64,000 bases of DNA, from positions 1 through 64,000 of the forward strand of contig NZ_JADQTO010000037.1 of NCBI RefSeq assembly GCF_015704865.1, in the 5' to 3' direction. This DNA comes from Actinoplanes aureus (GTDB lineage Bacteria; Actinomycetota; Actinomycetes; Mycobacteriales; Micromonosporaceae). Made by a program: the position numbers and the translations under genes. Below are positions 15,232 through 62,820 of this stretch, one piece after another; position 1 is the stretch's first letter, and each line of letters starts with the position of its first letter. The notes below the pieces were generated by a model. The model was given only the letters and a program-made list of their open reading frames with translations. It was not told where the DNA came from and did no database searches.

Positions 15232-15328
15232 TTAAGTACGGGGTTGGCAGTCTCCGGAAAAGAGACCGTCCCCGCGGTCCCGCGCGACCCCCTGCCTGGT
15301 CCCGGCCGCACCGCGACCGCCGGGACCA
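15232..15328 (-). repeat. Dispersed intergenic repeat, copy 1
   Basis: Read on the minus strand this begins CCTGGTCCCGGCGGTCGCGG, has GGTCGCGCGGGACCGCGGGGACGG in the middle (split here for length: GGTCGCGCGG, GACCGC, GGGGACGG) and ends near CCCCGTACTT. The same head, middle and tail recur in six other intergenic places in this window. The head can fold: CCTGGTCCCGG pairs with CCGGGACCAGG. It faces away from copy 2. Confidence 0.6.
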
Positions 15329-15441
15329 GGCAGTGGTCACGCGGGCTGCCAAAGCGCGCATCGCGGTTCGCCGGGCCGGTCGCGGTGGGCGGTTAGCCGC
15401 CCGACGACCCGGGCTCTCCTCGCTGCCCTGCCGGCGTGCCG

Positions 15442-15544
15442 TTTCCCGGCGGTCGCGGTGGGGCCGCGCGTGGCGGTCCGATCGCGTGGGGAGAGCGGGG
15501 ACGGGTGGCTCCGGCGGGGCGACCGGTCACGCGTACCTCGAAAG
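15442..15544 (+). repeat. Dispersed intergenic repeat, copy 2
   Basis: The head is TTTCCCGGCGGTCGCGG, the middle GGGGAGAGCGGGGACGG, and the tail ACCGGTCACGCGTACCTCG. It is closest to the copies at 37839 and 38627. GGTCGC in the head can pair with GCGACC near the tail, so a long-range stem is possible. Confidence 0.65.
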
Positions 15545-15545
15545 A

Positions 15546-15690
15546 GCGTGCGTGGGAGGCGGAGAGCGACCACTGGATTGCGTGCGTGGAAGGCGGAGAG
15601 CGACCACGGGATTGCGTGCGTGGGAGGCGGAGAGCGGCCCCGGGATTGCGTGCGTGGGAGGCGGAGAGTGACCGGGATTGCGTGCGTGGG
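15546..15690 (+). repeat. Four-copy 34-bp tandem repeat
   Basis: Units begin GCGTGCGTGGGAGGCGGAGA and end GGGATT (or TGGATT). Copies are at 15546-15579, 15580-15613, 15614-15647 and 15648-15679 (two bases shorter), followed by a partial unit to 15690. It directly abuts the dispersed repeat and lies 20 bases beyond the haloperoxidase stop codon. Frames through it are open, but nothing suggests translation. Confidence 0.85.
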
Positions 15691-15710
15691 CGGCGGCGAC
15701 CTCCGGGCGT

Positions 15711-16982
15711 TCAGCGGGGGCAGGCGCCGAAGTGGGTGGGGCCGGTGCGGCGGAGCAGCTCGGTGCTGAGGACCTCGCCGGCGACGCCGTGGCCGACGCC
15801 GAGACCGGCCTGGTTGCTGAACTCGAAGTGCTGGCCGCCGTAGACCCGGGACCGTCCCGCCTCCGCGGCGGCGGCCGCGAAGCCCGGATAGCCGCGCGCC
15901 GCGCCGCCCGGGGCCGAGTCGGTGGCGTGGTGGAAGGGGATGGCGTCGCTGCAGAAGAAGCCGGCCAGTACGGCCGCGCCGGCACCGCTGTACGAGCTGT
16001 GCCCCGACACGTACTCCGGTGTGCCGCCGACGCTGCCGGCCCGGGCGGACCAGGCCGGGTTCGGCGCGGTGGCCGGGTTTCCGTCGGTGTCGGCCTCGCG
16101 GATCGCGGTGGTCGGCCGCCAGTGCCGGTACGTGTACTTGGTGCGGACCGTGGCCACCGTCGTGTCGGCGAGCGCCATCGTGAGCAGCGCGGCCAGCCGG
16201 GCCTGATCGGCCAGTGGCAGGTGCCGGTCGGCGGCGACGGTGAGGCCGATCCGCAGCCACTCGCCGGGCGGCTGGCCGGAGCCGGCGGGCAGTGACCAGA
16301 ACTGGTAGGTGGCTAGCAGGTCCGGTTCGGGCAGCGCGGCATCGCCGAGGATCGCGACCTCGGCGAAGGCGGCGGCGTACTGGAGGCTGGTCAGCGCCGG
16401 GGGAGGGCCGGGGACGTGCCGCGCGGGGTCGGCGACGGCGAACGGGCGCACGTTGCGGTACTGCACGCCCGCCCACGCCGCGCGGAAGACGCCGGGTCCG
16501 GTGCCGGCCCCTTGGGTCTCCACCGGGGTGGAGCCGTCGCCGGCGCGGGCGGTGACCACAGCCTGGCCGACCTCGCGGCCCCACCGGGCGCCGGTCTCGC
16601 CGCCGGGGAGGCGGGCCAGGTCGGCGTCGAGGCGGGTGTCGTAGGTGGCGGTGCGAGCCGGGTCCAGGCGGACCAGCACCGCGTGCGCCGCGGCGGCGGC
16701 GGCCGCCTGTGGGTCGCCGTCGCGTGGTCCCGGGCCCGGCACCAGGGCGTGGGTGCGGCGGTCCCGGCTGCCGGCTAGGCCGTTGACCGCGTCGTAGATC
16801 GCGACGTTGACCATCGCGTAGAGGCGGGCGGCGTCGGCATCGGTGGCGCGGGTGGCGCGTACGGCGTCGAGCGCGAACCCGTTCCACACCCGTACGGCGT
16901 CGATGTCGGTGTGGGCGTGCTCGGTAACCGGAACGCTCACGCCGGCCAGGCTCAGAACGGCGACGAACAGAAGCTTGCTCAC
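15711..16982 (-). CDS. Secreted vanadium-dependent haloperoxidase/PAP2-like protein
   Basis: This 423-residue protein has a signal peptide (VSKLLFVAVLSLAGVSVP) and the PAP2/vanadium haloperoxidase pocket: KYTYRHWRP (Lys and Arg, about 285), EYVSGHSSYSGAGA (Ser-Gly-His, about 335) and RVYGGQHFEFSNQAG (Arg and His, about 385). Members oxidise halides with peroxide or act as acid phosphatases; the sequence does not decide. The GTG at 16982 was preferred because GGTGG precedes it; an ATG lies five codons upstream. The gene is monocistronic and is followed by the 34-bp repeat array. Confidence 0.82.
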   Translation of the reverse strand: MSKLLFVAVLSLAGVSVPVTEHAHTDIDAVRVWNGFALDAVRATRATDADAARLYAMVNVAIYDAVNGLAGSRDRRTHALVPGPGPRDGDPQAAAAAAAHAVLVRLDPARTATYDTRLDADLARLPGGETGARWGREVGQAVVTARAGDGSTPVETQGAGTGPGVFRAAWAGVQYRNVRPFAVADPARHVPGPPPALTSLQYAAAFAEVAILGDAALPEPDLLATYQFWSLPAGSGQPPGEWLRIGLTVAADRHLPLADQARLAALLTMALADTTVATVRTKYTYRHWRPTTAIREADTDGNPATAPNPAWSARAGSVGGTPEYVSGHSSYSGAGAAVLAGFFCSDAIPFHHATDSAPGGAARGYPGFAAAAAEAGRSRVYGGQHFEFSNQAGLGVGHGVAGEVLSTELLRRTGPTHFGACPR

Positions 16983-17040
16983 GGCACCACCCTGCACCGC
17001 ATCGCATCGGAAGTCGTCAATGCGTCCTCGATCGGACGCC

Positions 17041-17586
17041 TCAGCCGCCGAGCGTCCTGCCCTGGAAGCCGTACACGGTGCCGGTCTCGCCGACCTCCTC
17101 GACGTCGACGTCGACGTTCACCCGGCCGCCGCGGACACTGTCGATCCGGGCCGCGACGAGTAGCCCGTCCACCCGCTTCGCGGTGGCGACCACGTCCACC
17201 TGGCTGCCGGCCGGCTCGCGCTCCTCGCCGCGGAACGTGATCCGCTGCCGGTACGCCAGCTCCAGCAGCGAACGCAACGCCTCCACCTGGGCGATCAGCT
17301 CGGTGTTCGCCGGGTCGACCGGGCGGATCCCGTGCACGTACGACCCGAGCCGCTCGGTCAGCGTGATCAGCTCCTCGTCGCGCTCCTCGAGGACCCGCTC
17401 GTCCACCGGCACCGGCTCGAGGCGGCCGGCCAGCACCGGATCGTCCGCCGCCGGCGTCACCAGCGCGGCCTGATCCTTGCGTTCGCGGCGTCGTTTGAGC
17501 AGCTCCGTGGCCTGGCCGTAGAGGAACGTGATGCCCTCGGTCAGGACGGCCGCGCCGAGCACCGCCAGGGTCACCGGTTCCGCCAT
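17041..17586 (-). CDS. Hypothetical protein with N-terminal hydrophobic helix
   Basis: This 181-residue protein is not recognised by family. It begins MAEPVTLAVLGAAVLTEGI, TFLYGQATELLKRRRERK, a pattern seen at the start of several uncharacterised actinobacterial proteins, followed by a charged helix and a C-terminal half rich in beta-strand residues (VNVDVDVEEVGETGTVYG). There are no cysteines and no signal peptide. It lies between the haloperoxidase and TetR genes with no obvious partner. Confidence 0.7.
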   Translation of the reverse strand: MAEPVTLAVLGAAVLTEGITFLYGQATELLKRRRERKDQAALVTPAADDPVLAGRLEPVPVDERVLEERDEELITLTERLGSYVHGIRPVDPANTELIAQVEALRSLLELAYRQRITFRGEEREPAGSQVDVVATAKRVDGLLVAARIDSVRGGRVNVDVDVEEVGETGTVYGFQGRTLGG

Positions 17587-17653
17587 CGTCGTCTCCTCGA
17601 CCAGGACGCTACGCCGGCCGCCGCCGGGTCTCTGTCGCGTCGCCGACAGCCTG

Positions 17654-18310
17654 TCACCCGCCGGGGCGCAGCAGGTACCGGGTGACCATGATGGTCAGGT
17701 CGCGCAGGAAGTCCTCGTCGGTCCCGGTGGCCGCGGCGAAGCCCGGCCCGTACGCGGTACGCAGCACCAGGGTGGAGAACACTGTGTCGAAGGCTGCTCG
17801 AATCGCGCCCCCCGGATCGGGCTGATCGATCTCGACGCCGGTTTCCAGAATCAGGGCGGTGAACTGGTCGCCCAGCTCCCGGCTGTACCGCCGGCCCCGG
17901 CGGTGGACCTCCGGATGCACGCCGGAGATCAGGATCACCGCTCGGAGCAGGGCGGCGTGCCGGTCGAAGACCCCGGCGACCAGCCGGACCGCCTCCGCGA
18001 CGATCCGCTCGGCTGGCACACCCCGCCACCGGTCACGCTCGTCGAGCACGGCCTGGTCCGCGCGGACCCGGGCGAGACCGTGCTCGTAGACGGCGAGGAA
18101 CAGGGCGTCCTTGTTGTCGACGCGGGCGTAGAGGGCGCGCGGCGGCACCTGGGCGCGCTCGCAGACGGCGGCGATGGTGAACGCCTCGTACCCACCCTCC
18201 TCCAAGATCGTCACCCCGGCGTCGAGGACCCGCTGCCAGGCCTCCCGGCTGCGCTGCTGGAGCGGCGGCCGGATCTCCAGGGACTCGGCGGGCGTCGTCA
18301 TGCGCTCCAT
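17654..18310 (-). CDS. TetR-family transcriptional regulator
   Basis: This 218-residue protein has the TetR helix-turn-helix in residues about 14-60 (WQRVLDAGVTILEEGGYEAFTIAAVCERAQVPPRALYARVDNKDALF in pieces) and a variable ligand domain with a short FxxVFSTLVLRTAYG segment. It diverges from a flavin monooxygenase gene with a 100-bp spacer that holds a good TetR-type palindrome. It should repress that gene and itself. Confidence 0.88.
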   Translation of the reverse strand: MERMTTPAESLEIRPPLQQRSREAWQRVLDAGVTILEEGGYEAFTIAAVCERAQVPPRALYARVDNKDALFLAVYEHGLARVRADQAVLDERDRWRGVPAERIVAEAVRLVAGVFDRHAALLRAVILISGVHPEVHRRGRRYSRELGDQFTALILETGVEIDQPDPGGAIRAAFDTVFSTLVLRTAYGPGFAAATGTDEDFLRDLTIMVTRYLLRPGG

Positions 18311-18329
18311 CCTCGCTGATCCGCGGGGG

Positions 18330-18392
18330 TTGACAGCCGGGTGACCCGGACCACATCCTCATCTGCACCGAAACCGTAGCGCCCACTACGGT
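18330..18392. promoter_or_regulatory. Promoter element and TetR-type operator
   Basis: TTGACA at 18330-18335 is a good -35 for the rightward gene, but no strong -10 follows. ACCGTAG-N6-CTACGGT at 18373-18392 is a perfect inverted repeat of TetR-operator size. It lies between the -10 region and the ribosome-binding site AAGGAG, where binding would block the monooxygenase gene. Confidence 0.6.
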
Positions 18393-18410
18393 CTTTCCCA
18401 AGGAGTACCC

Positions 18411-19637
18411 ATGTCCGCTGTTCGCCGTGGCCGCGTCGCCGTCATCGGTGCCGGGCCCGCCGGGATGGCCACCGCACTCTCCGTCCACCAGGCCGGCCAC
18501 GAGGTCCTGTTGCTGGAGCGCTACCCCCGGGCCCGCCCGGCGGGCAACATCCTCAATCTGTGGCCACCGCCGATCAAGGCGCTCGGCCTGCTCGGCGTCG
18601 ACACCACCGACCTCGGCGCGCCCTGCTACACCGAGTTCCGCAGCGCCGCCGGCCGCACCCGCGTCCGGGTCAACCTGCCCGGCGACGTCGTGCGCGACTA
18701 CGGCGGCGGCTTCATCGGCCTGCTCCGCCCCGACCTGTACGCGCGGCTGCTCGCCGCCCTGCCGCCGGGTGTCCTCCAGGTCAACCGCACGGTCGACAGC
18801 TTCGACCAGGACGAGACCGGGGTACGGCTGCGGATGGTCGGCGGCGAGACGATCGAGGTGGACGTGGTCGTCGGCGCCGACGGCATCGACTCCCTGGTCC
18901 GCCGCACGCTCTGGGGTGACACCCCGAAACGCGAGCACCACCTGCACATCTTCGGCGGCTACACGTTCGACGACACGGTCACCGCCGAGCGCGGCCTGTG
19001 CCTGCTGTCGCACAGCCGGACCGTGCAGGGCAGCTGGACCGCGATCCGGGACAAGGGCCGGGACGGCTTCCAATGGTGGGTTCTCGGCGCCCACGACGCG
19101 CGCACCGAGTTCACCGGGGATCCGCACGCCACCGCCGCCCGGATGGGCGCCGGGTTCGCCGCCCCGCTGCCGCAGCTGATCGCCGCCACCGACCCGGCCC
19201 ACGTGCAGCGGTGGGTGCTGCGCGACCGCAAGCCGCTGAAGCGGTGGTCCAAGGGCCGGGCCACGCTGGTCGGCGACGCTGCGCACCCGACCAGCCCGTA
19301 CGCCGCTTACGGCGCGGGCATGGCCACCGAGGACGGCTACTTCCTCGGCCGGCGGCTGGCCGGCGTCGACCTCTCCGACCACTCGGCGGTGCGAGCGGCG
19401 CTGGAAGCGTTCGAGGGCCCACGCAAGCCGCACACCGCTCGGCAAGTGCAGCAGGCGTACGCCCTCGGCAAGATTTTCCACCACGCGCCCGCCCCGCTGC
19501 GACCGCTGCGCGACGCGTTGCTGGACCGCACCCCGTTTCTGCAGAAGGTTGTCGGTGACTCGTCACCCGGTGAGATCGTCGCGCAGATCGCGGCCATCGA
19601 CGAGACGGAGGCGCGGTTCCGCGCGATCACGGCGTGA
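18411..19637 (+). CDS. FAD-dependent monooxygenase (PHBH fold)
   Basis: This 408-residue protein belongs to the aromatic-hydroxylase/epoxidase group. It has the dinucleotide motif GAGPAG (about 13-18), LLERYPRARPAG, the DG motif VVGADGIDSLVRR and the GD motif ATLVGDAAHPTSPYAAYGA. It uses NAD(P)H and oxygen to hydroxylate or epoxidise a substrate I cannot identify. The ATG has AAGGAG upstream. It is controlled most likely by the divergent TetR regulator. Confidence 0.88.
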   Translation: MSAVRRGRVAVIGAGPAGMATALSVHQAGHEVLLLERYPRARPAGNILNLWPPPIKALGLLGVDTTDLGAPCYTEFRSAAGRTRVRVNLPGDVVRDYGGGFIGLLRPDLYARLLAALPPGVLQVNRTVDSFDQDETGVRLRMVGGETIEVDVVVGADGIDSLVRRTLWGDTPKREHHLHIFGGYTFDDTVTAERGLCLLSHSRTVQGSWTAIRDKGRDGFQWWVLGAHDARTEFTGDPHATAARMGAGFAAPLPQLIAATDPAHVQRWVLRDRKPLKRWSKGRATLVGDAAHPTSPYAAYGAGMATEDGYFLGRRLAGVDLSDHSAVRAALEAFEGPRKPHTARQVQQAYALGKIFHHAPAPLRPLRDALLDRTPFLQKVVGDSSPGEIVAQIAAIDETEARFRAITA

Positions 19638-19726
19638 CCGTGCGGTTCGCCGTACCGTGCTCGGGGTTGGTCTTTCTCGTGCGCCGCCGCGTGCGGCGCG
19701 CGAGCTGACGGGAGGGCGGGCGAAGC

Positions 19727-20710
19727 ATGATCGTGTTGGACGGGCCGGACACCCGGGCCGCGCTGCCGATGGCCGACGCGGTCGAGTGCGCGCGCGAAGC
19801 CATGCGCGCCACCGCCGGTGAACATCTGCGCCAGCCGCTGCGGACGGTGATCAACGCCGGCCCGGCCGGCTTCCTCGCCGCCATGCCGGTCTGCGTGGCC
19901 GATCCGGCGGAGACCCTGTTCGGGATCAAGACGATCGTGGTGAAGCCCGGCAACGCGGCCCGCGGCCTGCCCTCGCACAACGGCCTTGTCGTGCTGTTCG
20001 ACGGTGACACCGGGCTGCCTACCGCCGCGGTCGACGCCGCGGTCATCACCGAGATCCGTACGGCGGCGGTCTCGGCCGTAGCTACCGGCGCGCTTGCGCG
20101 CGCCGACGCGGCCCGGCTCAGCATCATCGGCACCGGCGCGCAGGCACGCACGCATCTGGAGGCGATGCTTGAGGTACGGGAGATCGGCTCGGTACGGGTC
20201 TGGGGGCGTACGCCGGAGCGGGTCACCGAGTTCGCCGGGTGGGCGCGCACCCGGTTCGGCCTGCCGGTGACCGAGGCCGTCTCGCCGCGCGACGCGGCCG
20301 CCGGTGCCGACGTCGTCTGCACCGTGACGGCGTCCCCGGAACCGCTGTTGTCGGCGGCGGACGTCGCCCCCGGCGCGCACGTGAACGCGGTCGGCGCCAG
20401 CCAGCCGGGCTCCCGCGAGCTGGCGCCGGACCTGGTGGCGCGGTGCCGGGTGGTGGTGGACCGGCGCGAGTCCGCCGGTGCCGAGGCCGACGACCTGATC
20501 CTGTCGGCGGACCCGCCCCGCCGGGCGCCGGTGGCCGCGGAACTCGGCGAGGTGCTGCTCGGCCGGGCTGCCGGCCGGACCGGCCCGGAGGAGATCACCC
20601 TGTTCAAGTCGGTCGGCCTGGCGGTGCAGGACCTGTTCGCCGCCCGGGCCGCGGTGCGCCGGGCCGCCGGGACCGGCATCGGCAACCACGTGCCGATGCG
20701 CGCCGGCTGA
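19727..20710 (+). CDS. Ornithine cyclodeaminase/mu-crystallin family protein
   Basis: This 327-residue NAD(P)-binding protein has the family features GIKTIVVKPGN (conserved Lys), TEIRTAAVSAVAT, the cofactor loop IIGTGAQARTH, NAVGASQPGSREL and ITLFKSVGLAVQDL near the C-terminus. Members include ornithine cyclodeaminase, alanine dehydrogenase and siderophore-precursor enzymes. No amino-acid or siderophore genes lie nearby, so the substrate is open. It is followed by a strong bidirectional hairpin. Confidence 0.88.
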   Translation: MIVLDGPDTRAALPMADAVECAREAMRATAGEHLRQPLRTVINAGPAGFLAAMPVCVADPAETLFGIKTIVVKPGNAARGLPSHNGLVVLFDGDTGLPTAAVDAAVITEIRTAAVSAVATGALARADAARLSIIGTGAQARTHLEAMLEVREIGSVRVWGRTPERVTEFAGWARTRFGLPVTEAVSPRDAAAGADVVCTVTASPEPLLSAADVAPGAHVNAVGASQPGSRELAPDLVARCRVVVDRRESAGAEADDLILSADPPRRAPVAAELGEVLLGRAAGRTGPEEITLFKSVGLAVQDLFAARAAVRRAAGTGIGNHVPMRAG

Positions 20711-20736
20711 CTGTCTGCGGCGCGGTACCGGCGACG

Positions 20737-20775
20737 CGCGCCCCGTGACCGCCGCACCGGCGGTCACGGGGCGCG
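20737..20775. terminator. Bidirectional hairpin terminator
   Basis: A perfect 17-bp stem (arms around GCGCCCCGTGACCGCC and its inverse) with a five-base loop lies between two converging genes, 26 bases after the cyclodeaminase-family stop and 7 bases before the MFS stop. There is no U-tract, which is common for GC-rich actinobacteria. Confidence 0.7.
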
Positions 20776-20781
20776 ACGGGA

Positions 20782-22060
20782 TCAGCCTCGGGCCGAGGTC
20801 TCCTGCCGGTGCAGGCGCGGCAGGTGCGGTTCCCCGGGCTCCGGCGGCAGGTCGTCGACACCCGTGGCGACCGCATCCTCGTGGCGGCGGTGCGCGGACG
20901 GCAACGCGAGCGCGGCGACCGCGGCCAGCACGCCGACGCCCGCGCAGACCCAGAAGCCGGCGGTGAACGCGTCGTCGGTGGGCAGGCCCTGCGGGGTGCT
21001 GTGCGAGGAGAGCACCGCCGCGACGACAGCGGTGCCGATGCTGCTGCCGATGGTCCGGGCGATCGTGTTGACGCTGGTGGCCTCGCCGGTCTGGGCGGCC
21101 GGGACGCTCTCGATGATGGCGTTCGACATGACCGCGAAGGCCAGGCCGATGCCGGTGCCGGTGAAGATGCCGGAGAGCAGCACCTTCCCGACCTCGTCGT
21201 GGGTGACGGCGGGGACCGCGAACGCGACGACGACCGCGAGGGTGCCGAGGAACAGCTTCGGGCCGTACTTGCGGGTGAGCAGGCCGGCCAGCGGACCGAA
21301 GATCACCATCATCACGACGGTGGGCAGCAGGAACAGGCCGGACTGGGACACCGACTTGCCGAACCCGTAGCCGGTGGCGGCGGGCAGTTGGAGCAGCATC
21401 GGTACCAGGAGGAAGGTGCCGAACATCGCGAAGCCGAGCATCAGCGCCACCAGGTCGGTGGCCCAGACGCCACGGATCCGCATCAGGCGCATGTCCACCA
21501 GCGGCTCGGCGGTCCGCAGCTCCACCACGACGAAGACGGCCATCAGCACCGCGCCGGCGGCGAGCAGGCCGATGGTCTTGACGTCGATCCAGCCCCAGGC
21601 CTGGCCCTTGCTGATCGCCAGCAGGAGCGCGACCAGCGAGGTCGACAGCAGGACGGTGCCGAGGACGTCGAGCCTGCCGGGCGTACGCACCGGCGACTCC
21701 TTCATCCCGAAGATCGCACCGGCCAGCGCGATGATCACGAAGACCAGCGGCAGCCAGAACAGCCAGTGCCAGGACAGGTGCTCGACGATCGGGCCGGCCG
21801 CCACGATGCCGACGCCCGCGCCGACGCCGAAGATGGCCGACAGCAGGCCGACGATGACACCGACCCGCTCGCGGGGCAGTTCGTCGCGGACGATACCGAT
21901 CGACAGCGGCATGATCGCGCCGGCCGCGCCCTGCAGGACCCGGGCGACGATCAGCACCGACAGGTTCGGGGCGACCGCGGCCAGGACCGGGCCGGGCCGC
22001 CAGCGCCGCCAGCACGCCGATCAGGACGCGGCGTTTGCCGACCATGTCGCCGAGGCGGCC
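20782..22060 (-). pseudogene. DHA2-type MFS drug-efflux protein, 5' deleted and frameshifted
   Basis: The intact part (20782 to about 21985) encodes a typical 14-helix MFS exporter with VARVLQGAAGAIMPLSIGIVRDELP and VEHLSWHWLFWLPLVF. Upstream, the motif-A region GRLGDMVGKRRVLIGVLAALA continues in a different frame, so one base has been gained or lost near 21990. Above GRLGD (22060) homology stops, and the first two helices are missing. The sequence there becomes the end of a TetR gene on the other strand. The gene cannot make a full transporter. Confidence 0.75.
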
Positions 22061-22189
22061 CAGGTCGTCCTCTCGGCCGCCCTCGGCATCGTGCTGCTGC
22101 GCGCTTCCGGACTCCAGCCGCTCGCCGCTGCCGAACCCACCCAGCTGGCCGAGCCGTTGCGCAAGATGATCGGCGCCCTTCTATCGTGA
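22061..22189 (+). pseudogene. C-terminal remnant of a TetR-family regulator
   Basis: The frame QVVLSAALGIVLLRASGL, QPLAAAEPTQLAEPLRKMIGALLS, stop, looks like the last 42 residues of a TetR regulator (effector-domain end, ALL/R core, terminal helix). No helix-turn-helix or start precedes it. Instead it is joined directly, back to back, to the truncated MFS gene. The pair was presumably divergent before the region holding both 5' ends was lost. Confidence 0.55.
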
Positions 22190-22250
22190 CCCGGGTGCCG
22201 ATCACTCCGGTTATGACGACGAAGGCCTCGCGTACGACGGCGCGGCCCCC

Positions 22251-24034: not shown

Positions 24035-24140
24035 GGCCGCCCCCTCTCGTCAAGCACGGGCGTCCTGTCACCTTGAGTAGCACGCGCGTCACCCGCGCCC
24101 CAACCGGTTTTCGGCGCACCTCACATCGGCTGTTCGACAG

Positions 24141-24629: not shown

Positions 24630-24657
24630 GACTGAGCACGATACCTGACCAGCGCAC

Positions 24658-26145: not shown

Positions 26146-26175
26146 CATCCGCGACCGGGCTTGACCCGGCTCATG

Positions 26176-26282
26176 GGCCCGGCGGTCGCGCTGGGGCCCG
26201 GTGCGGCTGCTGCTCGCGGGGGAGAGCGGGGACGGTCTCGTTCCGGCGGGACGGCCGGAACCCGTACCCCAAAGCCCGAAAG
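26176..26282 (+). repeat. Dispersed intergenic repeat, copy 3
   Basis: The head is GGCCCGGCGGTCGCGCTGGG, the middle GGGGGAGAGCGGGGACGG, and the tail GGCCGGAACCCGTACCCC. It lies between two converging genes, 30 bases after one stop and directly against the other, where a terminator would be expected. Confidence 0.7.
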
Positions 26283-26284
26283 GA

Positions 26285-26947
26285 TTAAAGCGGGACCGAT
26301 GCGGAGCGTGCGGGCATTGCCTGCGGGAGCCGGACGGCGAGGGCGGCCGTTGCGACGGCCAGCAGGAAGCCGGCGATCGGCTGGGCGAGCTGCAGGGTGA
26401 AGCCGGCGAGCACGAAGATCGGGATCAGTACGGCGTAGGCGATCCCGTGCCAGCGCAGCCCGCGACTGGTGCGGGCGATGGCCGTGCCGAGCACGATCGC
26501 GGCCACGATCAGCAGGAACGCCGCGGACAGTGCGGTGGCGAACAGGGCCGGCCCGTAGGCGGTGTCGTCGTTGAGCGCGGGCATCCCGGGGGTTCCGGCG
26601 AGGTGGGCGCGGCCGATGCCGGGCTGGACGAAGGCGGCGCTGCCGAACGCCGCGGCCAGGAAGACGTTGGAGATCGTGGTGAGCGCCAGGCCGGTGATCG
26701 CGCTGCCCGCGGCGCGGCCGGCGGTGAGGAACGTGGTGACGGCGACGGCGCCGAGGATCGCCAGTGCGGCGCCGAGGACGCTGGCGCCGAGGTGGCTGAC
26801 CAGGAAGATGTCGGTGGTGACGTAGCGGGCGTAGGCGTCGAAGTCGTCGGTGGACGGCTGATGCGTGACGGTGCTCAGGCCCAGCAGGAGGCCGTAGGCG
26901 GGCAGTGCCCACAGGCCGGCCCTCGCGGCTCGCGTCGTCGTTGACAT
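26285..26947 (-). CDS. Six-helix membrane protein of unknown function
   Basis: This 220-residue protein has six hydrophobic segments, including LWALPAYGLLLGLSTV, LVSHLGASVLGAALAILGAV, GLALTTISNVFLAAAFG, ALFATALSAAFLLIVAAIVLG, IAYAVLIPIFVLAGF and IAGFLLAVATAALAV. No transporter motif was identified. It starts 53 bases after the azoreductase stop and probably belongs to that MarR-controlled operon. Confidence 0.75.
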   Translation of the reverse strand: MSTTTRAARAGLWALPAYGLLLGLSTVTHQPSTDDFDAYARYVTTDIFLVSHLGASVLGAALAILGAVAVTTFLTAGRAAGSAITGLALTTISNVFLAAAFGSAAFVQPGIGRAHLAGTPGMPALNDDTAYGPALFATALSAAFLLIVAAIVLGTAIARTSRGLRWHGIAYAVLIPIFVLAGFTLQLAQPIAGFLLAVATAALAVRLPQAMPARSASVPL

Positions 26948-37824: not shown

Positions 37825-37838
37825 AGTAGCCGGTCCGG

Positions 37839-37945
37839 CTTCTTCGAGGTACGCGTGACCGGCGTCCCGCCGAAGCCGACGCGTGCCCGCTCTCCCGGCG
37901 CGAGCCCGGCTGTCCGTCACCGCCCCCGCGCGACCGCCGGGAAAC
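37839..37945 (-). repeat. Dispersed intergenic repeat, copy 4
   Basis: On the minus strand the head is GTTTCCCGGCGGTCGCGC, the middle CGCGCCGGGAGAGCGGGCAC, and the tail GACGCCGGTCACGCGTACC followed by TCGAAGAAG. It is the closest relative of the copy at 38627; CCGGCG in the head and CGCCGG in the tail are complementary. It lies 15 bases after the transpeptidase stop. Confidence 0.72.
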
Positions 37946-37982
37946 ACCAGTCCGTCGCGCTGCGGGGCTGACCGGGTGTGGG

Positions 37983-38126
37983 TGCTCGCCACGCGGCTGG
38001 GCTGCTTGCTCGGGGTTGCGGGGCCGGGGGCGGTTTCGTTGTGGTTGCTCGTCACGCGGCCGGCGTGCCTGCGCGGGGGTTGCGGGCCCGGGTGCGGTTT
38101 CGTCGTGGTCGCTGGTCACACGGCCG
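37983..38126 (+). repeat. Imperfect 63-64-bp tandem repeat
   Basis: Units start TGCTCG(C/T)CACGCGGC and continue with TTGCGGG, CCGGG, GCGGTTTCGT, GTGGT. Copies are 37983-38045 and 38046-38109 with a partial third to 38126. A further diverged copy lies at 38369-38432. Confidence 0.7.
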
Positions 38127-38223
38127 GGCGCGGCTCGGGGCGGCGCGGCTCGGGGCGGCCCCGGGAGGCGGTGACAGCCATCAGGCACAGCCCGGCCCGC
38201 CTTTTTCGGCCTATTTGATCGCT

Positions 38224-38279
38224 CGGCTGTGCACCAGGGCTGCCCCCAAGGCCGTCCAAGCAGCCCTAGCGCACAGCCG
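38224..38279. terminator. Long interrupted hairpin
   Basis: CGGCTGTGC and AGGGCTGC on the left are matched by GCAGCCCT and GCACAGCCG on the right, with a three-base internal loop and a 16-base terminal loop. The two stems are eight and nine bp. It lies midway in the gene-free region, far from either gene, so a terminator role is doubtful. Confidence 0.5.
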
Positions 38280-38368
38280 GCCCGCAGAACCCCGCCTTGT
38301 CGATCACCGAGCTAGCAGCAGCGGCTGTTCCGCTGATCAACACCACACCCGCCACGCTCGGCCGCAGC

Positions 38369-38432
38369 TGCTCGCCACGCGGCCGGGCTACCTGCCCAGG
38401 GGTTTGCGGGGTCGGGCGCGGTTCGTCGCGGT
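38369..38432 (+). repeat. Diverged extra copy of the 63-64-bp repeat
   Basis: It begins TGCTCGCCACGCGGCCGGGC and ends GCGGTTCGTCGCGGT, matching the tandem units at 37983 through the shared TTGCGGGG and GCGGTT cores. It is separated from them by the long hairpin. Confidence 0.6.
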
Positions 38433-38460
38433 TGCTTGCCAGCGCCTCGGGTCCCGGGCC

Positions 38461-38520
38461 GCGGACTGCTGAGCCGCGGACTGCTGAGCCGCGGACTGCT
38501 GAGCCGCGGACTGCTGAGCC
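38461..38520 (+). repeat. Four perfect 15-bp tandem repeats
   Basis: GCGGACTGCTGAGCC is repeated four times without a mismatch, then degenerates into GCGGACGGCCGGGCC-like units to about 38570. The unit length is a multiple of three, but TGA in one frame and context argue against coding. Confidence 0.92.
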
Positions 38521-38626
38521 GCGCGGCCGGGCCGCGGACGGCCGGGCCGCGGACTGCCGGGCCGAAGACGGCGCGCCGCAGGCCGCCAATGCTCGCGTTC
38601 GTCGCCGTAACCGTCAGGTGACGCTG

Positions 38627-38735
38627 TTTCCCGGCGGTCGCACTGGGGCCGTGAGGGAAGGCCTGGCTCGCGCCGGGGGAGCGGGGACAGGGTCGGCTTC
38701 GGCGGGACGCCGGTTACGCGTACCCCGAAGAAGCG
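38627..38735 (+). repeat. Dispersed intergenic repeat, copy 5
   Basis: The head is TTTCCCGGCGGTCGCACTGG, the middle CGGGGGAGCGGGGACAGG, and the tail CGCCGGTTACGCGTACCCCG followed by AAGAAGCGG. It lies just beyond the stop of the leftward TPR-protein gene, oriented against it. With copy 4 it brackets the gene-free region. Confidence 0.72.
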
Positions 38736-38747
38736 GAACCGGCAGGG

Positions 38748-54048: not shown

Positions 54049-54146
54049 GTTTGCATTCTACTATAACAATGTCCAGCCCGCGCAGACCGATAGGGTGGCC
54101 GTCGCATTCACGGACAATGTGGACGGCTCTCGGCGAGGTGACGCAG

Positions 54147-55004: not shown

Positions 55005-55034
55005 GGCCCGCGGGCCCCACCGTTCAGTCCGGGG

Positions 55035-55433
55035 TCAGCCGCAGTTGGTGCCGCGCTTGCCGCCCTCGGTGCCGCTGATCCGGCCCATCCAGTCCACGCA
55101 CTTGTCGGCCGCGGACAGGTAGAGCGGTCCGGCGTACGAGGTGTAGTAGCCACCGTCGAACTTGGGCCAGTGAGTGCCGACCGGGTGGATCGCCAGGCCG
55201 GCCTCGACCAGGACCGCCGAGCCGGTGCTGTTGCGCTTCGCCACCACGCAGTTGTAGCCGTTCGACGCGTTGTACGTCAGGAACACCGTCCCCTTGGATC
55301 CGATGGCCGCCGAGTTCACGACGCCGTAGCCGGACCCGCACTCACCGCCGTAGCTGGCCGCCTGCGCCGGGGTGGCGGAGGCGAGAACCGCGGCCGCCGT
55401 CACCGCGAAGGTCGTTGCTGCGATCTTCTTCAT
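55035..55433 (-). CDS. Spore-associated protein A (SapA)-family secreted protein
   Basis: This 132-residue protein has a signal peptide (MKKIAATTFAVTAAAVLASATPAQA) and a compact mature domain with CGSGYGVVNS, GTVFLTYNASNGYNCVV, YYTSYAGPLYLSAADKCVDW and a terminal NCG. Four conserved cysteines suggest two disulphides. Streptomyces SapA of the same pattern is found on spores. A paralogue lies directly upstream. Confidence 0.8.
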   Translation of the reverse strand: MKKIAATTFAVTAAAVLASATPAQAASYGGECGSGYGVVNSAAIGSKGTVFLTYNASNGYNCVVAKRNSTGSAVLVEAGLAIHPVGTHWPKFDGGYYTSYAGPLYLSAADKCVDWMGRISGTEGGKRGTNCG

Positions 55434-55446
55434 GATCGGGTTCCTC

Positions 55447-55857
55447 TCAGCCGCAGTTGGTGCTGTAACGGGTCTTCGACGCGGTGCCGATCGTGCCGCC
55501 CCAGTCGACGCACGATCCGGCCGCCGACACGTAGACCGGACCGGCGTACGTGGTGAAGTTGCCGCTGTCCTTCACGTACGACGAGGCACCAGAGCGGCGC
55601 AGGTACGCCTCCATGAGGGTCGCGGTGCCCGGCCGCTCCCGGAGGGTCACGACGCAGTTCTTCCCGGTGGACGCGTTGTAGGTGAGGTACACCGTGCCCC
55701 GCAGGTCGGGAAGGTCGATCAGGTTGACGACGCCGTAACCGGAGCCGCACTGCCCGCCGTAGAGCGCGGCCTGTGCGGGAGCCGCCCCCATGGTCACGCC
55801 GGCCGCGGTGGCGGCGGCGGTGAGCCCGAGTGCGGCGATCTTCTGTGAAACTCGCAC
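55447..55857 (-). CDS. Spore-associated protein A (SapA)-family secreted protein
   Basis: This 136-residue protein has a signal peptide (KIAALGLTAAATAAGVTMGAAPAQA) and mature domain CGSGYGVVNL, GTVYLTYNASTGKNCVVTL, FTTYAGPVYVSAAGSCVDWGG, TNCG. It is roughly half identical to the downstream paralogue, with cysteines in the same places. The GTG at 55857 precedes the signal peptide and follows GGGAA. The two genes are 13 bases apart, a tandem duplication. Confidence 0.8.
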   Translation of the reverse strand: MRVSQKIAALGLTAAATAAGVTMGAAPAQAALYGGQCGSGYGVVNLIDLPDLRGTVYLTYNASTGKNCVVTLRERPGTATLMEAYLRRSGASSYVKDSGNFTTYAGPVYVSAAGSCVDWGGTIGTASKTRYSTNCG

Positions 55858-55991
55858 GAGCGAAGTTCCCTTTCTGTCGGAGGTCGTTGCCGCGATGACG
55901 CTGGCACGCTCCGGCCCGCGGCGACAGAAGATCGCCGTCCATGGAAAGTCCGCTGGAGAATTCGGAGAAATCCCGGTCGCTCCGGTGCTGG

Positions 55992-56600
55992 TCAGGCGAG
56001 CCGCCAGCCGGACTCGACCGAGCGCCGGCAGCTGGACGGGTCGTCCCCGCAGCTCACGTACAGAGCGGTGAGGATGGGCGCGCCGTGGCCGAGCGCGGCG
56101 CGGGGCAGCGGTCCGGTGGTGACCAGCGAGGCGAGCCCGTGACCGATGGCCCAGCTCTGGGTGGCCAGGGTCAGCGGGTCGACGTCGGCGCGGAACCGGC
56201 CCCGCTCCTTCGCCCGCTCGGCCGCCCGGACCAGCGTGTGCAGGGACTCGTCGGCGGCGGCCGGGTCCTCCAGGTCGAAGCCGGCGTCGAACATGACCCG
56301 GTAGAGGTCCGGGTTGGCCACCGCGTTGGCCAGGTAGGCGGATCCGAGGGCGGCCAGGTCGCGGACCGGATCGGCGGACAGCGGGACGGTGGCGAGCTGG
56401 GCCGCCAGGCGGCTGAAACCCTCCTGGCGCATGGCCCGCCACAGCCCGTCCATGCCACCGAAGTACGTGTACACCGCCATCGTCGACACGCCGGTGCCGG
56501 CCACGACGGCGCGCAGCGTGACCGGCTCCCGGGCCCGCAGCATCTGCGCGGCCCGCTCGATCAGCAGGGTGCGAACAGCCGGGTCCTTCGTTCTGGCCAT
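55992..56600 (-). CDS. TetR-family transcriptional regulator
   Basis: This 202-residue protein has the TetR DNA-binding domain (residues about 6-55: RTLLIERAAQMLRAREPVTLRAVVAGTGVSTMAVYTYFGGMDGLW in pieces) and a TetR_C_33/WHG-like effector domain. ATG 56600 is chosen; the upstream codons lie in the operator region. It diverges from a frameshifted RidA gene. Confidence 0.85.
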   Translation of the reverse strand: MARTKDPAVRTLLIERAAQMLRAREPVTLRAVVAGTGVSTMAVYTYFGGMDGLWRAMRQEGFSRLAAQLATVPLSADPVRDLAALGSAYLANAVANPDLYRVMFDAGFDLEDPAAADESLHTLVRAAERAKERGRFRADVDPLTLATQSWAIGHGLASLVTTGPLPRAALGHGAPILTALYVSCGDDPSSCRRSVESGWRLA

Positions 56601-56607
56601 GGCGCAA

Positions 56608-56632
56608 CTATACATAGCAGTGCTATACATAG
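56608..56632. promoter_or_regulatory. Repeated CTATACATAG in the tetR/ridA spacer
   Basis: CTATACATAG is present at 56608-56617 and 56623-56632, direct copies 15 bp apart in an otherwise GC-rich sequence; each half is nearly self-complementary (CTAT-AC-ATAG). It lies against both start codons and is the likely TetR operator. AT-rich -10 elements for either direction could be contained in it. Confidence 0.6.
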
Positions 56633-56635
56633 GCC

Positions 56636-57044
56636 ATGGCTGTGACCCTGATGAACCCGGACGGACTGCCCAAGCCGGATGTGTACCGGCAGATGTCGAT
56701 CGCCACCGGATCCCGGATGGTGTTCCTCGCGGGGCCAGGTGGCCCGCGACGCCGACGGCAAGCCGGTCGGCCCCGGAGACCTGGCCGCGCAGGTCGAGCA
56801 GGCCTACCTCAACATCGGGACGGCGATGGCCGCCGCCGGTGGATCGTTCGACGACGTGGCGAAGCTGACGATCTACGTCGTCGACTGGTCGCCGGAGAAA
56901 TACCCGCTGCTCGGTGCGGGCGTGGCCCGGGCCGCCGAGAGACTGGGCGTCGACCCGGTCAAGCCCATCACGCTGCTCGGCGTGGCCGCGCTCGGCGAGC
57001 CCGACCTGCTCGTCGAGGTGGAAGCGGTCGCCGTCCTCGCATAG
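56636..57044 (+). pseudogene. RidA-family protein with a frameshift
   Basis: The frame MAVTLMNPDGLPKPDVYRQM, SIATGSRMVFLAG is interrupted at GGGGCC (56731-56736) by one extra base. It resumes as GQVARDADGKPVGPGDLAAQ, VEQAYLNIGTAMAAAGGSFDDVAKLTIYVVD to the stop at 57044. Read together it is a normal RidA/YjgF enzyme (reactive imine deaminase) of about 135 residues. The arginine that normally binds substrate follows in the second part only in part. It may be a real mutation or a sequence error. Confidence 0.78.
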
Positions 57045-57073
57045 GCGGCTGCACCGGGGGTACGCGTCGTTAC

Positions 57074-57238
57074 ATGACTGCTAACCAGCCCAAGGAGCCG
57101 CCCGACTACGAGCGGCCGATCGATCTGACCGACACGCCGGACGGAAAGAGCCGGCCGGCACCGATTCCGGAGCACCATCCGGACGACAACGACATACCCG
57201 GCCGCGTCACTGGGCCGGACACGCCGCCGCGGACCTGA
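57074..57238 (+). CDS. Small Pro/Asp-rich hypothetical protein
   Basis: This 54-residue protein starts MTANQPKEPPDYERPIDLTD and ends PGRVTGPDTPPRT. It is disordered-looking, very hydrophilic, and lacks cysteine and membrane segments. Coding bias is fair, but the ribosome-binding site is weak. It lies between the RidA relic and the kinase gene. Confidence 0.5.
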   Translation: MTANQPKEPPDYERPIDLTDTPDGKSRPAPIPEHHPDDNDIPGRVTGPDTPPRT

Positions 57239-57301
57239 TTTCGTTCATGGTGTGAGATCCCGGGGATGCGGAATGTCAACAATCGCGGCAGACTGCCGTG
57301 A

Positions 57302-58822
<1,521 letters not shown>

Positions 58823-58845
58823 CATCACGGCCCGGGGGAGGCGAC

Positions 58846-59112
58846 GTGGACTCCACGCGCGAACTGCGCTGGTCGGTCGGACTCTTCCTGATCTTCCTGG
58901 CCGTCGTTCCGGTGCTCGGCAGCGCCATGGTGTACGACGCCTGGCTCCCGGTACTGGTCGCCGTCCCGATCAACACGGCCGGTGCCGCCCTCGCCGCCGT
59001 CGGCATGGGATCCCGCGACCCGGACACCTCGGCACGGCGCCTCCTGCTCGCCGCCGCGCTGATCCTGCTCGGCGACGCCGCCCTCTACGGCCTGCGAGCC
59101 GCCGTCACCTGA
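58846..59112 (+). CDS. Small three-helix membrane protein
   Basis: This 88-residue protein has hydrophobic stretches VGLFLIFLAVVPVLGSAMV, LPVLVAVPINTAGAALAAVG and LLLAAALILLGDAALYGL. The GTG follows GGGGGAGG. It starts 23 bases after the kinase stop and may be cotranscribed with it. Family not recognised. Confidence 0.65.
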   Translation: MDSTRELRWSVGLFLIFLAVVPVLGSAMVYDAWLPVLVAVPINTAGAALAAVGMGSRDPDTSARRLLLAAALILLGDAALYGLRAAVT

Positions 59113-59183
59113 CGGCGGCCGCCCGATCCCGGCGAAAAGCGATAGCGTATCCAGCAGGGTGAATCCCCACGGAAGGATCGACG

Positions 59184-60305
59184 ATGACGCTTCGTGACAC
59201 CCCGCCGTTCCGGGCCGACCACGTCGGCAGCCTGCTCCGCCCGCCGCGCCTGCTCAAGGCGCGTGAGCAGAAGGCCACCGGCGAGATCAGCGCGGACGAG
59301 CTGCGCGCGATCGAGGACGACGCCATCCGCGAGGTGGTCCGGATGCAGCGTGACGTGGGCCTGCGCTCGGCCACCGACGGCGAGTTCCGCCGCACCTCGT
59401 GGCACATGGACTTCATCTACCGCCTCGGTGGTGTGCACCCCACCGACGAGAAGATCCAGGTCCACTTCCGCAACGCCGACGGCGAGCTCGACTTCGAAGC
59501 GGCGGCCCTCGCCATCGACGAGCCGATCCGGCTCCGGGAGACGATCTTCGGCGACGACTTCGCCTTCCTGGCGGACCAGGTGGACGACGGTGTCACCGCG
59601 AAACTCACCATCCCGTCGCCCAGCATGGTCCACTACCGGGGCGGCCGGGCGGCCATCGATCCCGGGGTCTACCCGGACGAGGAGCAGTTCTGGGCCGATC
59701 TCAGCGCCGCCTACGCCGAGCAGGTGCGCCGGGTCGCCGACCTCGGCTGCCGTTACCTCCAGCTCGACGACACCAGCCTCGCCTACCTGAACGATCCCGC
59801 CCAGCGCCGCCTGCTCGACGAGCGCGGCGACGACGCCGAGCACCAGCACCTGCGTTACATCCGGCAGATCAACGCCGCGATAGCCGGCCGCCCAGCCGGC
59901 CTGTCCGTCACCACGCACATGTGCCGCGGCAACTTCCGCTCGTCCTGGGCCGCCGAGGGCGGCTACGACTTCGTCGCCGAGGCACTGTTCAGCGAGCTCG
60001 CCGTGGACGGCTTCTTCCTCGAGTACGACGACGAGCGTTCCGGCGGCTTCGCACCGCTGCGGTTCGTGCCACCCGGCAAGATGGTCGTCCTCGGCCTGGT
60101 CACCACGAAGAAGGGCGCCCTGGAGTCCAAGGACACCCTCAAGCGCCGCATCGACGAGGCCGCCGAGTACGTACCGCTCGACCAGATCTGCCTCTCCCCG
60201 CAGTGCGGCTTCTCCTCGACGGTCGAGGGCAACGTCCTCACCTACGAGGAGGAGGTCGCCAAACTCCGGCTGATCGCCGAAACCGCGGAGGAGATCTGGG
60301 GCTGA
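59184..60305 (+). CDS. MetE C-terminal-like methionine synthase family protein
   Basis: This 373-residue protein resembles the catalytic half of cobalamin-independent methionine synthase (as in YxjG/YxjH): ADHVGSLLRP, DGEFRRTSWHMDF, YLQLDDTSLAYLND, VTTHMCRGNFRSSW (metal-binding His and Cys) and LSPQCGFSSTVEGN (second Cys). Such short forms transfer methyl groups to homocysteine or act on related thiols. The N-terminal half of full MetE is absent by family design. ATG start with AAGGA upstream. Confidence 0.86.
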   Translation: MTLRDTPPFRADHVGSLLRPPRLLKAREQKATGEISADELRAIEDDAIREVVRMQRDVGLRSATDGEFRRTSWHMDFIYRLGGVHPTDEKIQVHFRNADGELDFEAAALAIDEPIRLRETIFGDDFAFLADQVDDGVTAKLTIPSPSMVHYRGGRAAIDPGVYPDEEQFWADLSAAYAEQVRRVADLGCRYLQLDDTSLAYLNDPAQRRLLDERGDDAEHQHLRYIRQINAAIAGRPAGLSVTTHMCRGNFRSSWAAEGGYDFVAEALFSELAVDGFFLEYDDERSGGFAPLRFVPPGKMVVLGLVTTKKGALESKDTLKRRIDEAAEYVPLDQICLSPQCGFSSTVEGNVLTYEEEVAKLRLIAETAEEIWG

Positions 60306-60320
60306 CCGCGAACGCTCTTT

Positions 60321-60421
60321 CGGGCGTACGGGTGACCGGCCGTCCCCAGAAACCCGGACCGTCCCCGGGAGCCGCGCGACCGGGCAGCACCCGGGGCCCC
60401 AGCGCGGCCGCCGGGCCCGGG
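60321..60421 (-). repeat. Dispersed intergenic repeat, copy 6
   Basis: On the minus strand the head is GGGCCCGGCGGCCGCGCTGG, the middle CGGCTCCCGGGGACGGTCC, and the tail GGACGGCCGGTCACCCGTAC. It lies between two converging genes, starting 16 bases after the MetE-like stop, and is more diverged in the middle than the other copies. Confidence 0.6.
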
Positions 60422-60435
60422 TGCCGGGAGATCTC

Positions 60436-61338
60436 TCACCGGCGGCTCAGCCGCCCGAGTTCCTTGCCGCCGCCGTCCACCAGCACCAGCTCCGCGCCGT
60501 CGAGACCGGCCCGGCTCGCCTCGCTCAGCCAGGCGCCGACCGGTACGTTGGCGCACCCGATCAGTGTGGTCGGGCCCGCGAGGGCGAGAAACGAACCGGC
60601 CGCGCCGGCGGTCCAGCGGCCGCCTTCGCCGTTGCAGCCGTCGCTGCCGGTCCACTGTCCGTTCGCCTTGAACTCGACGTAGGCGCCCACGTCCTTGCCC
60701 GCCGGCTGCCACCGGCCCAGCAGCGTCCCCGTGGTGGCCGGCTGCAGCGGCGACGGCAGTGGTACGGCGACGGCGCGGAGCTGCTCGCGGATCTCGTCGG
60801 TGACGACCGGCACCCCGGTCATCTCGGGCAGCAGGTCCGACCGCGGCGTCGGCACAGCGCCCGGCATCAGCCGCGCGACCGTCGCACCGCTCTGGTCCAG
60901 CAGGAGGCGCTCCTTGCCGTCGACCCGGAAACCGGCGACGCGTCCCAGCCAGGCGGGCATGAAGTCGGCATCGGTGGGCTGCTTCCCGGCGAGCGGGCAC
61001 TCGCGGATCCGGGCGTTGACGCTGAACCCGTTGAGATTTCCGAGGAACTGGCCCTCCGTGTTCGCCTGCCAGGAACCGGTGAGCGACGTGCACCGCCCGA
61101 ACACCGCGAGGTCGCCTTCGCCGCTGACGCGCAGCACGGTGTCCTCCGGCTCGCCGTCGACCGCCAGTTTCCAGAGCCCGACCAGGGCGACCGGATCGGC
61201 CCGCACCGAGGCCGACGGCCCCACCGCGGACGCACCCGGCGGAAGCGGCGTCTCGGCCCGTGGCACGGCGGGTGATTGACCGCCGCACCCGGCCAGGAAC
61301 GCCCCTGCCAGTACCAAGCCGACCACCCGCAACCGCAT
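60436..61338 (-). CDS. Lipoprotein with META-like domain
   Basis: This 300-residue lipoprotein has signal VVGLVLAGAFLAGC (lipobox LAGC). It contains two related halves of about 130 residues: LVGLWKLAVDGEPEDTVLRV with FGRCTSLTGSW, and LLGRWQPAGKDVGAYVEFKANGQW with SDGCNGEGGRWTAG. The WxSDGCNG pattern and following FLALAG, TTLIGC match META/HslJ folds. A surface protein of unknown role; it may bind small ligands or metal. Confidence 0.75.
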   Translation of the reverse strand: MRLRVVGLVLAGAFLAGCGGQSPAVPRAETPLPPGASAVGPSASVRADPVALVGLWKLAVDGEPEDTVLRVSGEGDLAVFGRCTSLTGSWQANTEGQFLGNLNGFSVNARIRECPLAGKQPTDADFMPAWLGRVAGFRVDGKERLLLDQSGATVARLMPGAVPTPRSDLLPEMTGVPVVTDEIREQLRAVAVPLPSPLQPATTGTLLGRWQPAGKDVGAYVEFKANGQWTGSDGCNGEGGRWTAGAAGSFLALAGPTTLIGCANVPVGAWLSEASRAGLDGAELVLVDGGGKELGRLSRR

Positions 61339-61597
61339 GAGAAGACCTCCGTCCGGCTCGGCCGCCGTTCAGCCGATGCCGGTAGGACGCCGTCCCCGCC
61401 GCGCCGGTTCCTGGGCGACGGCGAAATGCCTCCGTCCGCGGCTTGGACACGGATTGTGCACGAGCTGTGGGGTCCAGGGCTGTTCCGGTGCTGTCGGATG
61501 GCAAGATCGGGTCCCGTGATCGTTGATCTTGAATTGTCCGGCACGCATGGCGTGGTGGGTACGCCGTGAGTAGTCCGGATCTCGTGGAGGCTCGTCC

Positions 61598-62701
61598 GTG
61601 AGGGCGGTCATCGTCGCGGCGGCGGTCGCGTTCGTCATCTCCCTGTTCGGCACGCCGGTGGCGATCCGGGTCTTCACCGCGCTCAAGGCCGGGCAGCCGA
61701 TCCGTTCCCTCGGGCTCGCCTCGAACGAGGGCAAGAGGGGCACCCCCGCGATGGGTGGCGTCGTGTTCATCGTGGCGACCCTCTTCGCCTACGTCGCCGG
61801 GCACGTGGCGCTGACCACGCTGCCCGAGCGGCAGATCGCCCAGGAACAGCCGACCATGACGGCCCTCGTCCTGCTCGGTCTCCTGGTCTTCTGCGGCGCG
61901 GTCGGCTTCGTCGACGACTTCCTCAAGGTCCGCAAGCGCAACTCCGACGGCCTGTCCGCCAAGGGCAAGCTGCTCGGCCAGGCGATCATCGGCACCGGGT
62001 TCGGCATCGCCGCGCTCTATGTGGCGAGCACCAACGGCCAGACCGTGGCCAGCGAGCACATCTCGTTCATCCAGGACATCAGCTGGCTGAACGTCGGCAA
62101 GGTCGGCTCGGTGATCGTGTTCGTCTTCGTGATCACGGCGATGTCGAACGGCGTGAACCTCACCGACGGCCTCGACGGCCTGGCCACCGGCGCGTCGACC
62201 CTGGTGCTCGGCGCGTACGCGCTGATCGGGTACTGGCAATACCGGCACTGGTGCGCCGACGACACGTACGCCCGCGCCAGCGACTACTGCTACCAGGTCC
62301 GTGATCCGCTCGAGATCGCCATGATCGCGGCGGCGGCCGCCGGCGCCTGCGTGGGCTTCCTGTGGTGGAACACGTCCCCGGCGCGGATCTTCATGGGCGA
62401 CGTGGGCTCGCTCGGGCTCGGCGCCCTGATCGGCGGGCTCGCGGTGGCAACCCGTACCACGCTGCTGTCGATCCTGATCGGCGGTCTCTTCTTCATCATC
62501 ACGGTCACCTGGGTGATCCAGATCGTGTCGTTCCGGACCACCGGCAGGCGTGTCTTCCGGATGGTGCCGCTGCACCACCACTTCGAGCTGGCCGGGTGGA
62601 GCGAGGTCAACATCGTGGTCCGGTTCTGGACCGTGGCCGGTGTCTGCGTGGCGGTCGGCCTGGGCCTGTTCTACTCGGACTTCTTGGCGGCCGTCGGATA
62701 G
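61598..62701 (+). CDS. mraY: Phospho-N-acetylmuramoyl-pentapeptide transferase (MraY), outside the dcw cluster
   Basis: This 367-residue, ten-helix membrane enzyme transfers phospho-MurNAc-pentapeptide to undecaprenyl phosphate, making lipid I. Diagnostic motifs are [17 protein letters not shown] (catalytic Asp pair), [24 protein letters not shown] and VPLHHHFEL. None of the usual neighbours (murE, murF, murD, ftsW, murG) is adjacent, so it is probably a second copy. The GTG start is preceded by GGAGG. A separate copy in the cell-division cluster is expected but not visible here. Confidence 0.93.
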
Positions 62702-62738
62702 GGCCACGGCGTCGCGGGGTGAGCGTGCCCCGCTGCCC

Positions 62739-62820
62739 GGGCCCGGCGGTCGCGCTGGGGCCGGGACCGGGCAGCCGGTCGCGGGGGAGCGGCGGGACTG
62801 TTCGTGGACTCGTACCTCGC
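62739..62820 (+). repeat. Dispersed intergenic repeat, copy 7
   Basis: The head is GGGCCCGGCGGTCGCGCTGG, the middle GGTCGCGGGGGAGCGGCGGG, and the tail GGACTCGTACC. It is the shortest copy, lacking about 15 bases before the tail. It lies between the converging mraY and LacI-type genes, 38 bases after the mraY stop. Confidence 0.65.

Follow-up and report, generated by a model that had tools for sequence, protein, structure and literature searches.

A family of dispersed intergenic repeats of about 100 bp, probably mobile, in the genome of Actinoplanes aureus

REP/BIME elements are intergenic, present in high copy number and built of palindromic units in alternating orientation. Together with RAYT transposases they form one of the systems compared here (PMC2817692). 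In Pseudomonas fluorescens SBW25, the R0 and R2 repeats are reported to be 89-110 bp long, strictly intergenic and strain-variable, with 516-612 copies and inverted repeats of 24-43 bp, and a supplement legend of the same report gives the R families a site bias of gene tail-repeat-tail (PMC2718517). ERIC and other prokaryotic MITEs are described as non-coding intergenic sequences of about 100 bp with up to hundreds of copies (711 for ERIC in one genome), often without a linked transposase, and MITEs as AT-rich elements that carry inverted ends and, in young copies, direct repeats, and whose transcripts form stable stem-loops (PMC10969869).

The family analysed here was like the SBW25 R families in size, number and tail-to-tail bias, a likeness of published description and not of sequence, whereas the inverted repeats reported for R0 and R2 had no counterpart above chance in this element. 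It was like the described ERIC and MITEs in its length of about 100 bp, non-coding nature, intergenic sites, copy number and the lack of a linked transposase among the genes inspected, but showed no inverted ends, AT-richness, stable stem-loop or consistent direct repeats. High copy number, intergenic sites and alternating units were shared with REP/BIME elements, and to that extent the earlier note was right to call the repeat REP-like; however, the element is about 100 bp long and not palindromic, its hairpin stability is ordinary and no Y1/RAYT transposase scored over the cut-off in its own genome. Overall, the many similar, intergenic and lineage-specific copies place the family among the dispersed bacterial intergenic repeats in the broad sense, since it has the features of this kind and lacks those that define a MITE or a REP/RAYT system; the defining features of a structured RNA were lacking as well. 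No description of this repeat family was found in the titles and opening abstract lines of the open-access literature searched.

The window is the whole stretch of 64,000 nucleotides that was analysed (G000:C41:1-64000) and belongs to a genome of 10.74 Mb in 108 contigs. All seven copies described earlier were recovered in it in place and on the same strands (Table 1), at five sites, each between convergent genes. That most of them stand just after stop codons held for five of the seven, with the tail at most 20 nt from the facing stop, but not for the pair at 15.2-15.5 kb, with tail gaps of 433 and 168 nt. A 34-bp tandem repeat at 15535-15670 begins at the tail of the 15442 copy and a 15-bp tandem repeat (CTGAGCCGCGGACTG) lies at 38439-38529, within the spacer of the second pair.

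Table 1. Copies of the element and spacers of the paired copies in the window, with scores of R1, a sequence-only model built from 26 copies.
Feature	Position	Strand	Remarks
Element copy, GGT-headed, left member of first head-to-head pair	15224..15328	-	R1 45.4 bits; nhmmer 40.6 bits
Spacer of first head-to-head pair	15329..15441		Coverage 1 (itself only); absent elsewhere in the A. aureus sequence examined
Element copy, TTTCCCGG-headed, right member of first pair	15442..15554	+	R1 70.3 bits
Single element copy, GGGCCCGG-headed	26174..26294	+	R1 63.7 bits; almost fills a 139-bp convergent gap
Element copy, TTTCCCGG-headed, left member of second head-to-head pair	37830..37946	-	R1 96.8 bits; facing stop 18 nt from tail
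Spacer of second pair	37947..38625		Without called gene; short tandem repeats and sequence common to other spacers
Element copy, TTTCCCGG-headed, right member of second pair	38626..38744	+	R1 101 bits; facing stop 18 nt from tail
Single element copy in a 130-bp convergent gap	60312..60421	-	R1 48.3 bits
Single shortened element copy in a 138-bp convergent gap	62737..62822	+	R1 33.6 bits

A nucleotide HMM (nhmmer) found 92 copies in 1.264 Mb of the A. aureus genome, the same sample on which it had been iterated, and none in the reversed sequence, which showed that the family is real and has further copies. Each window copy matched another one far above 100 dinucleotide shuffles (weakest score 39.0, shuffle maximum 20.0), so the similarity goes beyond that of GC-matched sequence. 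Chance similarity of GC-rich sequence, which the GC content of 72% would favour, is refuted by these two results and can be set aside. R1 gave at least 150 matches genome-wide, the lowest among the matches listed having 49.5 bits, and the copy at 38627-38735 had 47 blastn matches in the genome at 80-100% identity. The least biased part of the sample was 400 kb of contig C1, chosen unseen, as the other sample contigs were picked for being hit-rich. It held 19 copies by R1 (E<1e-4) and 23 by the iterated nhmmer model, corresponding to about 620 per genome, while the whole sample corresponded to about 780, an upper figure that includes contigs chosen after seeing matches. The earlier estimate of around a thousand per genome was somewhat high.

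In the core of about 100 bp, the head (CCCGGCGGYCGCG) was followed by a variable stretch and TCGCG, then after about ten bases by CGGGGAC, and a segment of varying length separated this from CGTACC. CCGG and CGTAC were invariant in an alignment of 32 rows, three of which were chosen by eye. The two head types seen in the window persisted in the larger sample (TTT-headed 61, GGG-like 30 and other 1 of the 92 copies) and the shared tail was retained, with CGTAC in 91/92 copies. The head-to-tail strand was G-rich, with a mean skew of 0.17 that was positive in 99% of 90 copies. Young copies had longer flanks on both sides, which were common among those copies. The complementarity of head and tail proposed earlier did not exceed chance: in 90 copies the head matched the reverse-complemented tail with a mean local score of 7.58, no better than shuffles did (7.04, sd 1.55), and no terminal inverted repeat was detected. 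A palindromic hairpin unit of the REP/BIME kind was also absent, with no palindrome above chance. The strict G-quadruplex motif was found at 0.12 in both copies and shuffles, and a loose motif at 0.51 against 0.28 in shuffles.

Gene calls in the A. aureus sample were made with a home-made gene caller, and all 92 copies lay outside the called genes, in agreement with the avoidance of genes noted earlier; 45 were in convergent, 38 in tandem and 9 in divergent contexts. Among gaps of 90-160 bp, a copy was present in 14/23 convergent, 3/86 tandem and 0/77 divergent ones. When the 100 bp before each start was left out, 36 convergent gaps were still occupied against 19.8 expected, which shows that promoter avoidance only partly explains the bias. 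In C1 alone, convergent gaps made up 12 of the 19 occupied gaps compared to about 4.2 expected from gap lengths. Very short junctions were occupied in 20/169 convergent cases compared to 7/401 tandem ones. The tail was closer than the head to its neighbouring gene in 37 of the 52 single copies. All gaps with two copies (20/20) held them head to head, which is the alternating orientation of neighbouring units known from REP/BIME elements, with spacers of -7 to 735 bp, and a three-copy gap outside the sample (L193) had the order -,-,+. No gene was common to the element-adjacent genes, the largest protein cluster having 3 of 144 members at no more than 42% identity. A gene carried inside paired elements was considered and rejected: in 20 loci taken from R1 matches, mostly pairs, the long spacers were non-coding or had ordinary genes. 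At C1:277706, the gene caller placed the stop codon of a gene inside the element tail, and insertion of the element may have supplied the end of this gene.

Comparison with G060, the closest of 67 genus genomes compared (93% identity over a 1009-residue protein), covered 11 A. aureus loci in the matching 400 kb whose two neighbouring genes are adjacent in G060. Both nhmmer and R2, a model built from diverse copies, detected a G060 copy at two of these loci (22 kb and 200 kb), and no copy was detectable at the other nine. A decayed copy was readable by eye in G060 at two of these nine (137 kb and 181 kb), which indicates that loss is also at work. At three others of the nine, A. aureus bears the element where the G060 genes overlap: a pair at 125 kb (overlap of 4 bp) and single copies at 190 kb (12 bp) and 204 kb (4 bp). 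By eye, the 12-bp overlap sequence of G060 at 190 kb flanks the A. aureus element on both sides, which would fit a duplication. Among copies in general there was no consistent pattern of target-site duplication: 10-mers that matched at 9 or more positions were seen in 25% of singles and in 12% of mismatched pairs, but they lay at scattered positions. In the reverse direction three of nine G060 copies were comparable, and one of the three had no A. aureus counterpart (gap of 1 bp). These presence and absence differences, including the one reverse case, show that the family is mobile or strongly turning over. Together with the copy counts they bear out the earlier reading of a dispersed, probably mobile family in the hundreds.

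The median nearest identity of A. aureus copies was 0.815 to nine random copies of the same genome (0.796-0.832 in 200 draws) and 0.75 to the nine G060 copies. Spread within the lineage is the simplest account of this likeness, which gene conversion among copies could also produce. Presence at matching loci at 22 kb, 200 kb and window 60.3 kb represents vertical persistence. After the gene at window 59184-60305, that is, at the site of the 60312..60421 copy, R2 also matched a diverged copy in G060 and in G071 (L112 and L136); the element was thus present in three of the 30 genomes examined, which indicates that some sites last. Variants picked by eye after the same gene in G013 and G019 are not claimed as members, as R2 matched only A. 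aureus, G060 and G071 at this site. No claim is made that G060 is poorer in copies, since nhmmer found 9 in 400 kb but R2 found 12 at E<1e-4. In G060, the locus matching the window 26-kb site (L202:18798-19838) is a convergent gap of about 1050 bp with 13-bp and 62-bp tandem repeats in which no element was detected.

R1 found the family in 7 of 23 relatives of the same genus and in none of 16 genomes of other families. In 400 kb of G020, R1 found no more than 3 copies at E<1e-4, from which it follows that this model misses diverged families. Among the matches listed, R2 found the family in 11 of 15 genomes of the genus, and four genomes from other genera had one marginal match each (E 3e-4 to 8e-4). 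Judged by sequence matches, other members of the genus carry diverged relatives of the family. When 84,980 named genomes were scanned for an exact pattern, the nine loci retrieved were all in Actinoplanes (italicus, sandaracinus, philippinensis, xinjiangensis and couchii). At the C1 204-kb site, variants in G044, G079, G068, G074, G057 and G081 seemed by eye to share the ends of the element but to differ in the middle; they were rejected because R2 found only the A. aureus copy among 30 loci, even though three of these variants were rows in the alignment of R2.

Overall, these sequences are probably best read as a genus-specific family of non-autonomous mobile repeats, about 100 bp long, asymmetric, non-palindromic and non-coding, which has spread through the genome. 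An enzyme encoded elsewhere would recognise the conserved ends of the element, CCGGCGG at the head and CGTAC at the tail, and move it in trans. Copies landing in genes or promoters would be lost while those at 3' ends would be tolerated or kept, and copies may also be slightly favoured as boundaries between converging transcripts, which would add to the site bias. No transposase was identified, no insertion was caught in the act and no terminal inverted repeat was detected, which counts against this reading, as do the inconsistent target duplication, the decayed copies and vertical persistence at some G060 loci, and the enrichment at very short convergent junctions, which exceeds what plain tolerance predicts. 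None of nine genes in or beside the pair loci matched a transposase in Pfam, and no multi-copy or shared neighbour gene within the 1.264-Mb sample pointed to a parent IS sharing the element ends. It is very unlikely that the family is either REP/BIME in the strict sense, with a RAYT (Y1) transposase as its driver, or a classical MITE that has inverted ends. The BIME-like copy number, intergenic sites and alternating orientation would agree with this, and Y1 transposases scored over the cut-off in 5 of 10 genus genomes searched. However, palindromes and inverted ends did not exceed chance, folding energy was ordinary and no Y1 match passed the cut-off in A. aureus (best 13.9 bits, cut-off 23; absent at E 0.01), G074 or G072, all of which carry the family, whereas G023 has one Y1 match over the cut-off and neither R1 nor R2 found the element there. 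A conserved structured RNA (riboswitch-like, sRNA or intrinsic terminator), as the earlier note had considered, would suit an asymmetric element at 3' ends with conserved blocks and variable stretches between them, but is highly improbable. Rfam gave no match at gathering in the window and nothing plausible at E up to 10, and folding stability was ordinary (mean z of -0.73 sense and -0.60 antisense in 90 copies against -0.81 in 23 convergent gaps without the element). The RNAalifold covariation term was -0.06 in A1 (26 sequences) and -0.04 in A4 (32 sequences), and mutual information in 174 sequences showed no coherent helix. A terminator scan gave no terminator overlapping a copy at the five window sites and, with the folding z-scores, showed no stable hairpin plus T-tract, so an intrinsic terminator was rejected.

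It is rather unlikely that the copies are functional 3'-end elements retained by selection, which terminate or insulate converging transcripts, for example by acting as C-rich Rho-loading sites or protein roadblocks. Where the tail abuts the stop codon, the transcript would read the C-rich strand, and a C-rich transcript at the tail would suit Rho. Within 70 nt of a stop, 57 cases were tail-facing and 20 head-facing, with pairs counted, and the skew (C-G)/(C+G) after stops was 0.18-0.19 with a tail-facing element compared to about 0 without. The convergent enrichment beyond promoter avoidance, the weak folding that a Rho-loading site would have, and the head-to-head pairs, which present a tail to each converging gene, also agree with this function. 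Against it, single tandem copies had the tail towards the upstream stop in only 12/18 cases (p=0.24, not significant), single convergent copies present the G-rich strand to the other gene, a Rho-loading site needs no conserved blocks, the skew was weaker (-0.03 to 0.15) in sequences of nine relatives chosen by eye, and most comparable G060 loci had no detectable copy. In addition, a separate hairpin-plus-T-tract terminator, identified by eye, is kept between the stop codon and the element at 22 kb and 48 kb of C1. The termination role raised earlier thus fits the position of the copies, but not as an intrinsic terminator, and at these two loci the genes' own terminators stand before the element. 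Less likely still is an asymmetric, non-palindromic transcription boundary that spreads like a transposon and prefers stop-to-stop junctions, where it would part converging genes that overlap and terminate the transcripts of both via a bound protein or Rho. If this were true, several hundred gene boundaries would have been acquired by invasion of a mobile element, via a transposition route not yet described. For the mobile-repeat reading preferred here, the family is surprising chiefly because neither of the best-known routes, IS-derived MITEs and RAYT-driven REPs, fits it. Families this large influence gene boundaries, complicate assembly and annotation and are usually a sign of a transposition system. 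The tight convergent sites and the natural presence/absence pairs between species make it directly testable how converging transcripts are terminated in GC-rich actinobacteria.

Finally, a second dispersed repeat was observed, a strong hairpin (CCCAACGTGGGTGCTGTCT..AGACAGC..) found for example at C13:10898 and C33:45544. Its exact core had 17 matches in 1.264 Mb, 4 of them less than 400 bp from an element. Some copies lay just past element tails, and a half copy was present in the window near 15180-15220. In G082 (L243), a row of similar GCTGTCTC..GAGACAGC-like hairpins, possibly related to this second repeat, follows the gene that bears the element in A. aureus.
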